DNA of 64,000 bases from Flavobacteriaceae bacterium (lineage in GTDB: Bacteria; Bacteroidota; Bacteroidia; Flavobacteriales; Flavobacteriaceae). The position numbers and the translations under genes are program-made. This document shows positions 28,742 through 31,904 of this stretch, piece after piece (the first letter of the stretch is position 1; every line of letters begins with the position of its first letter). The stretch is taken from contig JABSPK010000007.1 in assembly GCA_013214065.1 (NCBI GenBank), positions 62,001 to 126,000 on the forward strand. Direction: 5' to 3'. Below the pieces are notes generated by a model. It was not told the origin of the DNA and did not search any database. It saw nothing but the letters and a program-made list of their open reading frames with translations.

Positions 28742-29350
28742 ATGGCTTTTGAATTACCAAAACTTCCCTATGCTTATGATGCATTGGAACCCCATATCGA
28801 TGCCCGGACCATGGAAATACACCATATCAAGCATCACAATGGATATACCACCAAATTGAACGGCGCGATCGCCGGAACCGATCTTGAAGGAAAGGATATC
28901 GAAGCGATCTTGACGGATTTGGATATGACCAACGGAGCCGTGAGGAACAACGGTGGTGGGTTTTACAACCATTGTCTTTTCTGGGAAGTGATGTCTCCCA
29001 ATGGAGGAGGGCAGCCTAGTGGTGCATTGGCCGATGCCATCAATAGCGCCTTTGGTTCGTTCGATGCGTTCAAAGAGAGATTCAGTGCCGCAGCAGGTAC
29101 CCGTTTTGGATCAGGGTGGGCTTGGCTATGCGTGAACAAGGGAGGAACTGTCGAAGTTTGTTCGACCCCTAACCAAGACAATCCGTTAATGCCCGGAGCC
29201 GGTTGTGATGGCCATCCGATTTTAGGTCTTGATGTATGGGAACATGCCTATTACCTAAATTACCAAAACAGAAGACCCGATTATGTCGCGGCATTCTTCA
29301 ACGTGATCGACTGGGACAAGGTTTCAGCAAATTACGAAGCTTCGAAGTAA
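28742..29350 (+). CDS. sodA: Superoxide dismutase (Fe/Mn type)
   Basis: A 202-residue enzyme from the ATG at 28742. It converts superoxide to oxygen and peroxide. The conserved opening [19 protein letters not shown] is clear. The first metal-ligand region is [17 protein letters not shown] near residue 23, the second [22 protein letters not shown], and the last [21 protein letters not shown] with the Asp and His ligands. Sequence alone does not tell Fe from Mn reliably; I use sodA loosely. It is followed by a terminator (29379-29404) and converges on the small-RNA array. Confidence 0.95.
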
Positions 29351-29404: not shown

Positions 29405-29433
29405 ATTGGTGCAAGTTGGGATGACCCCAATAG

Positions 29434-29503
29434 AAAAGGGCGGGAAAGCTCCCACCCTTTTCGTCCCAAATCTTACCATAAACTTAACCTACTTATGCTA
29501 TGG
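29434..29503 (-). ncRNA. Predicted small RNA, copy 1 of a tandem array
   Basis: On the minus strand the 39-base box (29465-29503) begins CCATAGCATAAGTAGG and ends ATTTGGG. A 12-base-pair hairpin follows (29434-29461, arms AAAAGGGTGGGA/TCCCGCCCTTTT, loop GCTT, one G-T pair) with a short T-rich tail. Upstream, TAGTTTTG (29504-29511) touches the box; the alternative TAATTTAG (29509-29516) stands 5 bases off and has TTG 18 bases further back. Predicted transcript about 70 nt. Compared with copies 2 and 3 the box carries one change. No known RNA family was identified by eye. Confidence 0.5.
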
Positions 29504-29628
29504 CAAAACTAAATTACTGGTATTGTGGGAAATAACAAAAGAATTTTAGGAAATTTTTGAAGGGAGAAAGACCGCAATGAAGCTAAAAGGAATCGAATTC
29601 AAAGGATAATTCGTTGGCTTTCAAACAT

Positions 29629-29698
29629 AAAGAAGGCGGATAGATATCCGCCTTCTTTCCCCAAATCTTACCATGAACTTAACCTACTTATGCTATGG
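29629..29698 (-). ncRNA. Predicted small RNA, copy 2 of a tandem array
   Basis: On the minus strand the 39-base box (29660-29698) is followed by a 13-base-pair hairpin (29629-29658, arms AAAGAAGGCGGAT and ATCCGCCTTCTTT) and the tail ATGTTTG. Upstream, TACATTTG (29704-29711) is a perfect -7 box with a 5-base gap to the box; a TTG at the usual spacing was not seen. Inside the box the ends ACCAT and ATGGT can pair (a 5-base stem around AGCATAAGTAGGTTAAGTTC). Predicted transcript about 70 nt. Confidence 0.5.
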
Positions 29699-29703
29699 TT
29701 CTC

Positions 29704-29711
29704 CAAATGTA
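29704..29711 (-). promoter_or_regulatory. -7 box for small RNA copy 2
   Basis: TACATTTG on the minus strand, a perfect TAnnTTTG match, 5 bases upstream of the 39-base box. The -33 element is not clear. Confidence 0.5.
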
Positions 29712-29842
29712 TCCCAAGGCCGGGGATCGCTGAATTCTTTTAGACAAAAGCCCTTTAATTCAGTTGAAATACACACCAAGAAAATTGGACTATAATTTGT
29801 TGGGAAAAGGAGTACAACGAATGAGGAAAAACGAAGGAAAAT

Positions 29843-29913
29843 AAAAAAGGTGGAGATTGCTCCACCTTTTTTGCCCCAAATCTTACCATGAACTTAACCT
29901 ACTTCTGCTATGG
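29843..29913 (-). ncRNA. Predicted small RNA, copy 3 of a tandem array
   Basis: On the minus strand the 39-base box (29875-29913) is followed by a 13-base-pair hairpin (29843-29872, arms AAAAAAGGTGGAG and CTCCACCTTTTTT) and a tail continuing TTTTTTATTTTCC, the most terminator-like of the three. Upstream, TACTTTTA (29920-29927) is a near match to the -7 box, 6 bases from the box. The box differs from copy 2 at one position (TTATGC to TTCTGC on the plus strand). Predicted transcript about 71 nt. The purF stop is at 30006, on the same strand. Confidence 0.5.
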
Positions 29914-30005
29914 TAGACTTAAAAGTAATCCGGTTCGCTCTCGAAATGTTAAAAACACGGTGAAAGGTTCGTTTTCATCGACAAAACACCCAAAAAGGGA
30001 ATTTT

Positions 30006-31904
30006 TCAATACGCCCGTTGATTTTTACCCTCGTAAAAGTTGATAAATGCCCTATTTACGACCCGGTTTCCTCCAGGTGTCGGGTAGTCTCCGGTAAAGT
30101 ACCAATCCCCTAGATTTTTAGGACATGCAGCGTGAAGATGCTCAATGGTCTGGTAGATGATCTGGACTTCGGCTCCGATTTCCCGTGGACTAAGGATTTC
30201 TCCGATTTTCGCTGAGATTTCCTCTGCGGTAAAGGGCGCGTATAGCTCTTTCACATGGTTGATGACATCCTTGTCTTTCGAATCCCGTTGTTCGAGGCAT
30301 TTGGCATAGATCGAATCGATGACCGAAGTCGTGTTGCGATCCTTATGGAGCTCCAGTGCCGCTTTAAAGGCGACGAAATCCTCCAGTTTCGCCATATCGA
30401 TCCCATAACAATCAGGATAGCGTATCTGTGGCGCCGAAGAGACGACCACTATTTTCTTGGGATGCAGTCGATCCAACATCCTAAGGATGCTTTTTTTCAA
30501 AGTGGTGCCCCTAACGATGCTGTCGTCGATAATCACCAGGTTGTCATCTTCACCGACCGACCCGTATGAAATGTCGTAAACGTGGGCCACCAGGTCGTCA
30601 CGACTACTGTCTTGGGTAATGAACGTACGAAGTTTTGCGTCTTTGATGGCTACTTTTTCAATACGTGGTCGTTCTGCCAATATGCGATGCAGCTCTTCTT
30701 TGGTCATGTTCGGACCCAAAGCGAGAATCTGTTCTTCTTTTCGCTTGTTGAGGTAGTTCTGTGCTTCTTTGACCATTCCGAAAAACGAGGTTTCGGCCGT
30801 ATTCGGGATATAAGAGAACACCGTGTTTTTAAGGTCGTTGTCGATAGCTTTCAAAATATCGGGAAATACCAATTTGCCCAGAAGCTTGCGTTCTTCATAG
30901 ATCTCAAGATCGCTTCCCCTTGAAAAATAGATGCGTTCGAACGAACAGGCTTTGCGCTCACGGGGTTCCAATATTCGGGAAACCGTCACTTTTCCGCTCT
31001 TCTTGATGATCAGGGCATGGCCGGGTTCCAATTCTTGCACGGCGTCGTAATCCACATTGAAAACGGTTTGTATGGCCGGCCGCTCCGAAGCGACGACTAC
31101 CACTTCGTCGTCTTGGTAATGATAGCAGGGGCGAATACCGGAAGGATCTCGGAGCATGAAGGCATCCCCGTGTCCCATCATTCCGCCCATAGTATAGCCA
31201 CCATCCCAATTCTTGGATGATTTCCTCAGGATCTTGGCGATGTTCAATCGCTCGGCGATATGGGGTGAGGCCTCCTTTTTGCTATACCCTTCTTTTTTGA
31301 TCTCTTTATAAAGTTTGGCTACGGCGTCGTCCAAAAAGTGCCCGATTTTCTCCATGACCGTTATGGTATCGGCCATTTCTTTGGGGTGCTGCCCCAAGTC
31401 GACCAAGTTGTCGAACAACTCATCGACATTGGTCATATTGAAGTTGCCCGCCACGATTAGGTTACGGTGCATCCAATTGTTCTGCCTTAAGAACGGGTGC
31501 ACACTTTCAATGCTGTTCTTTCCGAAGGTACCGTATCGTACATGCCCCAAAAGCAATTCACCGATATAGGGGATGTGTTTTTTCTGCATTTGCACATCGT
31601 CCCAATATTGTGGATGATCGGCAATGGCATTGTTGATGCGATCGTTGATCTGGGCGAAAATATCCTGTATGGGTTGTTGCTTGCTCGAACGCACCCTGCT
31701 CATGTAACGTTCCCCAGGGGCCATATCCAATTTGATGCTCGCAAAACCAGCACCGTCTTGACCACGGTTGTGCTGCTTTTCCATCATGAGGTACATTTTG
31801 TTTACCCCGTAAAATGCGGTCCCGTATTTCTCTTTGTAGTATTCCAAAGGTTTTAACAACCGGATCAATGAAATACCGCACTCGTGCTTAATGGCGTCGC
31901 TCAT
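30006..31904 (-). CDS. purF: Amidophosphoribosyltransferase, long Bacteroidota form
   Basis: This transfers the glutamine amide to PRPP, giving phosphoribosylamine, the first step of de novo purine synthesis. The 632 residues exceed the usual 470-510. The Ntn-type glutaminase opens at Cys9 in HECGISLI, after a short propeptide-like leader; RGQDGAGFASI is family-typical. The PRPP-binding loop is LVIIDDSIVRGTTLKKS near residue 460. The extra length comes mainly from added segments in the N-terminal domain (around residues 60-200) and the C-terminal tail. Two PurF homologues often coexist in this group, so this could be the second, and its purine role is therefore inferred. The ATG lies 17 bases after the pfkB terminator. 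Confidence 0.8.
   Translation of the reverse strand: MSDAIKHECGISLIRLLKPLEYYKEKYGTAFYGVNKMYLMMEKQHNRGQDGAGFASIKLDMAPGERYMSRVRSSKQQPIQDIFAQINDRINNAIADHPQYWDDVQMQKKHIPYIGELLLGHVRYGTFGKNSIESVHPFLRQNNWMHRNLIVAGNFNMTNVDELFDNLVDLGQHPKEMADTITVMEKIGHFLDDAVAKLYKEIKKEGYSKKEASPHIAERLNIAKILRKSSKNWDGGYTMGGMMGHGDAFMLRDPSGIRPCYHYQDDEVVVVASERPAIQTVFNVDYDAVQELEPGHALIIKKSGKVTVSRILEPRERKACSFERIYFSRGSDLEIYEERKLLGKLVFPDILKAIDNDLKNTVFSYIPNTAETSFFGMVKEAQNYLNKRKEEQILALGPNMTKEELHRILAERPRIEKVAIKDAKLRTFITQDSSRDDLVAHVYDISYGSVGEDDNLVIIDDSIVRGTTLKKSILRMLDRLHPKKIVVVSSAPQIRYPDCYGIDMAKLEDFVAFKAALELHKDRNTTSVIDSIYAKCLEQRDSKDKDVINHVKELYAPFTAEEISAKIGEILSPREIGAEVQIIYQTIEHLHAACPKNLGDWYFTGDYPTPGGNRVVNRAFINFYEGKNQRAY

Follow-up and report, generated by a model that had tools for sequence, protein, structure and literature searches.

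The excerpted account of FopS describes a paralogous small RNA (sRNA) family of Bacteroides (RF04319), in which base-pairing with a susC start eliminated translation in vitro, and a phylum without classical sRNA chaperones (PMC11697453). In Flavobacterium psychrophilum, the main text of a second article maps the Rfp sRNAs and reports that Rfp18 pairs, via its third stem-loop, with metalloprotease mRNAs (PMC9723704). That main text mentions no tandem family and neither purF nor superoxide dismutase (PMC9723704). One Rfp transcript could be a member of the sRNA family described below. Outside this phylum, the MicL sRNA of Escherichia coli represses the lipoprotein Lpp.

The locus described here resembles FopS, so far as that account extends, in being multicopy in the same phylum, in joining a conserved 5′ part to a terminator hairpin and in the predicted pairing of its RNAs with start regions of envelope-protein mRNAs. 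Fifteen seed-region bases are also common to the two, with a two-base gap. Conversely, our RNAs occupy one fixed slot, have three classes of putative promoter and carry an extra 5′ pairing segment, and SusC starts are not enriched among their pairings. The likeness to MicL, to the extent that the source covers it, is one of function, namely the (here predicted) action of an sRNA on a lipoprotein mRNA; phylum and machinery differ, and no sequence relation is claimed.

Organisation of the array

The window, by which we mean the whole 64,000-nucleotide stretch of DNA analysed, contains three minus-strand units. Each consists of a 39-base box, a hairpin with a run of T and a TAnnTTTG-like box upstream. 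The features are listed below.

28742..29350, plus strand: superoxide dismutase-like gene (named by eye), convergent with the array
29433..29504, minus strand: predicted sRNA copy 1, type A; box 29465-29503; terminator arms 29433-29445 and 29450-29462 (arms from fold)
29505..29540, minus strand: putative promoter region of copy 1; -7 box TAATTTAG at 29509-29516
29629..29699, minus strand: predicted sRNA copy 2, type B; box 29660-29698; terminator arms 29629-29642 and 29645-29658
29704..29711, minus strand: putative -7 promoter box of copy 2, TACATTTG (from sequence and type-B consensus)
29843..29914, minus strand: predicted sRNA copy 3, type C; box 29875-29913; terminator arms 29843-29855 and 29860-29872
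29920..29927, minus strand: -7 promoter-like box of copy 3, TACTTTTA (from sequence and consensus)
30006..31904, minus strand: purF-like gene (amidophosphoribosyltransferase, named by eye from sequence), upstream of the array

An earlier, sequence-only reading had placed the three boxes at these positions and found them identical at 37 of 39 positions; the sequence, a repeat search and an alignment all agree. Units are spaced 195 and 215 nt start to start, and the copy 3 box reads CAGAAG where CATAAG is expected. Searching the source genome with up to three mismatches recovered these three matches and no fourth copy (reversed control, 0). The three predicted RNAs fold more stably than dinucleotide shuffles (z = -4.18, -4.48 and -3.17).

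That reading had also noted a T-rich tail after each hairpin, and each of the three does end in a T-rich run. It rightly observed that base changes in one hairpin arm have their counterparts in the other, but the hairpin is an intrinsic-terminator stem. This stem is unbroken over at least 8 pairs (G-U allowed), with a T-rich end, in 327 of 328 homologous copies, and there are 105 different left arms. At some marine single-copy loci (L110-type, L036, L038) the sRNA terminator lies no more than about 30 bases from the convergent dismutase gene, or overlaps it. Hence, the terminator may there serve both strands.

The ends of the box had been proposed to pair (ACCAT/ATGGT). Such pairing is usually possible, but among 69 sequences not one pair had changed on both sides. 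In a diverged set, two pairs had one double-changed sequence each, and one pair could not form in 30 of 45 sequences. Neither set supports a conserved 5′ fold of the box. The box itself is near-invariant among homologous copies, and target-mRNA pairing accounts for it better than a fold of its own does.

Family spread, copy types and upstream elements

With up to three mismatches, 93 of 249 family genomes contain a 28-base core of the box, and the control matched in none. Adding a second variant brought the sRNA-positive genomes to 186 of the 249; these lists cover 249 genomes and not 397, and some positives rest on match counts. A covariance model built from 69 copies matched 33 of 395 genomes in a sample of the phylum, and all 33 belong to the own family; 8 more own-family genomes are shown without a match, and the 342 phylum-sample genomes without one are not itemised. 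Matches include the species-rich genus g127, probably Flavobacterium, where the box mostly has CATTAG and UUUAUGG and one base fewer before GAUUU. Rfam 15 at curated scores returned only a tRNA elsewhere in the window and nothing at seven loci with homologues, in line with the earlier reading, which by eye had seen no match to a known family. No earlier description of the sRNA family was found among the open-access articles searched. Judged by these searches, the RNA family appears to extend over much of the Flavobacteriaceae and to lie outside the named Rfam families.

The gene neighbourhood is conserved. Among 139 loci, some of them from close relatives, 130 include an upstream gene, and at 120 of these there is a purF homologue on that side; 126 include a downstream gene, with a dismutase homologue there at 110. 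For variant loci, the numbers are 24/24 and 20/24, respectively (within 3 kb). A REP-like dispersed repeat was considered and rejected: the source genome has its three copies in one slot, purF is upstream at most loci, as just stated, and few loci lie elsewhere. The position is fixed rather than dispersed, which argues against a REP element. Single boxes outside the purF-sod slot were seen at L018, L074, L114, L118, G119:C3:381207 and G247:C1, so the module is able to relocate. There are 1 to 6 copies per locus, at a median spacing of 207 nt. Three copy types are set by the bases after GAUUUGGG, and their order is C, B(n), A in 89 of 90 multicopy loci.

A TAnnTTTG-like box just upstream of each copy, as described earlier, is present; for copy 1 the overlapping TAGTTTTG had been taken instead. 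Such promoter-like boxes stand at a fixed distance from the 39-base box across homologous copies. The conservation of the -7 box rests on box-anchored alignment, since profiles anchored on TAnnTT are circular for this purpose. Aligned in the same way, types A, B and C each have a separate upstream consensus (75 type-A copies). In type A, the promoter spacer CAATACCAGTAATTTAG is strongly conserved and includes an inverted repeat, AATAC-CA-GTATT, which is perhaps an operator. The copy 1 counterpart is AATAC-CA-GTAAT(T) at 29515-29524, and TTTGTTATTT lies further upstream at 29530-29539. One more AATACCAGTA occurs in the source-genome DNA scanned (the window and 20 stretches), at L223. A TTYRTCYRAA-like upstream element, defined after inspection of the upstream sequences, is present in 98/117 type-B copies, 33/64 type-C copies in arrays, 52/70 other type-C copies and 18/75 type-A copies; the equivalent numbers for shuffled sequence are 8, 3, 5 and 9. 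Each unit thus has a predicted promoter and a predicted intrinsic terminator of its own, as a trans-acting base-pairing sRNA should. Taken together, the promoter-like boxes, terminators, near-invariant box, fixed gene slot and lack of an Rfam match support the original proposal of an array of small RNA genes, which would be redundant homologues with a common exposed 5′ region.

Complementarity to lipoprotein leaders

The likeness to FopS, and the pairing of FopS with susC starts, made SusC the first suspected target. Of 30 SusC starts, taken from 30 genomes, only 1 paired with the array form at -25 kcal/mol or below, compared to 51 of 380 background starts; for the variant form the numbers were 0/30 and 25/380. 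Scanning the 380 source-genome starts, which come from stretches chosen around SusC-like genes, gave a weak excess of duplexes, the top three beating all but 5 of 232 shuffles. One of the top matches, the TonB-receptor-like gene P0002, was discarded; an orthologue is present in 30/30 genomes and its start reaches -25 kcal/mol in only 2/30. Other top matches were a 218-aa, a galK-like and a galT-like gene. At L215 15712-17883, the starts of adjacent galactokinase-like and galT-like genes are both within the four best duplex matches. A 15-mer antisense search of the source genome gave no excess (70+62 compared to 90+104 in the control). Similarly, a search for sites with one mismatch gave no excess over the control, and only exact ATGA sites were informative.

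Exact TAACCTACTTATGA sites, which are antisense to the first half of the box and include the start codon, open lipoprotein genes in the source genome and its relatives. The same genes carry CCCAAATC upstream, which is the antisense of the second half. In the source genome, the gene is for a 119-aa lipoprotein (G000:C2, L405 from 1548). Its start pairs at -31.9 kcal/mol, compared to -30.7 kcal/mol for the best of 380 others in equal windows; the gene was chosen by its match, so its first rank is partly built in. The frame is open further upstream, and the signal sequence begins at the predicted AUG. Copy 3, with CAGAAG, makes one pair fewer with this leader.

In 397 family genomes, the bipartite pattern CCAAAN{5,22}ACCTACTWATGR has 97 matches, spread over 83 of the genomes, compared to 37 matches for the reversed control. 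A first version of the pattern mostly matched the sRNA genes of relatives, and its tally is not a target count. We read 81 distinct sites; the remaining matches either were not among the sequences retrieved or duplicated another site over the 60 nt that surround the ATG. Open reading frames of at least 60 aa are opened by 64 of the 81, compared to 177 of 547 background TTATGR sites. A strict lipobox is encoded at 36 of the 64 ORF-opening sites; the count is 36 of 380 for background genes and 7 of 547 for background ATG sites. At least four unrelated lipoprotein groups recur: CAP (21 sites; CAP-domain, PF00188), NNDPI (6 sites; no Pfam match, and including the source-genome target), CSKD (6 sites) and CSDET (5 sites). 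The base before CCAAA, which is outside the pattern, is C at 43 of the 64 ORF-opening sites and 5 of the 17 others (Fisher p 0.011). Hence, a base that was not searched for extends the pairing. ORF-opening sites were found in 39 of 186 sRNA-positive genomes, so most of these have none by the strict pattern, and in 1 of 63 sRNA-negative genomes (p 9e-5; the p-values given here are too small, since orthology of sites and relatedness of genomes violate independence). These sites point to conserved complementarity between the predicted sRNAs and mRNAs encoded elsewhere.

The CAP lipoproteins of g127 permit a comparison in which starts were collected by protein homology and not by leader pattern. 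Seventeen g127 genomes had a CAP match and 14 are in the energy table, with starts picked from in-frame ATGs by signal peptide. For 12 of the 14, the predicted duplex with the g127 sRNA has an energy between -27 and -53 kcal/mol. Background starts, taken over an equal window, give -25 kcal/mol or lower in 17 of 380 cases, with a minimum of -28.9 kcal/mol. In the best leader, complementarity extends for 44 nt, across the AUG. The g127 form, and not the array form, is the best partner for 10 of the 14 (Wilcoxon p 0.007). Background starts prefer the g127 form in 131 and the array form in 244 of 380 cases. Of the other targets, 61 of 64 prefer the array form, which is partly built in by the search. 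Two of the 14 starts had no site, and two with a site preferred the other sRNA form. Two of three extra g127 CAP starts show the site by pattern. In four genomes without a model match, no CAP start paired better than -19.6 kcal/mol with any form. The CAP starts of several array-type genomes, including the source genome, have no clear site, which suggests that targets differ between lineages.

Predicted mechanism and alternative explanations

We consider it likely that the three RNAs are trans-acting base-pairing sRNAs, made from their own promoters, that bind the leaders of a shared set of lipoprotein and secreted-protein mRNAs and block initiation. Each RNA, of some 70-76 nt, would combine the shared antisense box in its 5′ part with an intrinsic terminator, and a separate class of promoter would drive each copy. 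Two pairing segments in the box, CAUAAGUAGGUUA and GAUUUGGG(G), would bind the short leader and start codon (CCCAAAUC..UAACCUACUU-AUG) of mRNAs for surface lipoproteins and other secreted proteins. The predicted partner segments are GUAGGUUA/UAACCUAC and GAUUUGGG/CCCAAAUC. Pairing of this kind would block translation initiation, and the RNAs thus probably switch lipoprotein mRNAs off. This account finds support, by comparison between genomes, in the conservation, the promoter-like boxes, the terminators, the locus, the start-codon sites and the differences between g127 sRNA and leaders. Transcription, repression rather than activation, and the signals involved are what we infer from it. Since the copies have a common box but separate promoters, several signals could converge on one target set.

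Four other explanations bear on these data. The direction of regulation is unreadable from sequence, and the RNAs might instead pair with leaders to activate or stabilise the mRNAs. We think this unlikely; the pairing covers the start codon, where a block of initiation is expected. It is more doubtful still that the leader motif CCCAAAUC..UAACCUACUUAUG acts by itself in translation or mRNA stability, with complementarity to the box secondary or accidental. Such a reading would suit the fact that the sRNA-leader interaction is a prediction. Conversely, it does not account for pairing of up to 44 nt, for the scarcity of sites in sRNA-negative genomes, or for g127 leaders that differ in step with the g127 sRNA.

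The array could also be taken for FopS-type sRNAs that repress SusC-like transporters, given its several copies and the UUCAUGGUA..AGAUUU that it has in common with the FopS model. We disfavour this explanation, and rate it slightly below the previous one. The array scores 21.1 bits where the FopS cut-off is 56, and so is not a member by score; no match over the cut-off was found in 30 genomes, and the three source loci are not among the matches listed. The SusC starts, as described above, pair less often than the background. Finally, there is an AUG inside the box (AUGGUAAGAUUU), as there would be in a small peptide gene. We give this next to no credence, as the other frames hold stops and the array and g127 forms differ by one base, shifting the frame past that AUG. 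We thus return to base-pairing sRNAs acting at lipoprotein starts. By covariance model and by target class these RNAs are not FopS, and would represent a new sRNA family of the base-pairing envelope type.

A broader view, which we hold to be evenly balanced between right and wrong, is that the RNAs form a family-wide hub for the translation of envelope lipoproteins. An antisense module, long kept in the purF-sod gap, would have been amplified to C-B(n)-A arrays in which the promoters are regulated separately. It would repeatedly have recruited unrelated lipoprotein mRNAs, with leader and start codon a near mirror image over up to 44 nt, and sRNA and leaders would have changed together between genera.

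Post-transcriptional control in flavobacteria is little mapped. The family supplies a widely conserved candidate sRNA together with its predicted targets and exact pairing sites; it also has natural variants that differ in step, and some related genomes lack it. Mechanism, target choice and the reason for several copies thereby become directly testable. The data suggest that surface lipoproteins may be an sRNA-controlled class in these bacteria, parallel to FopS and SusC in gut Bacteroides.
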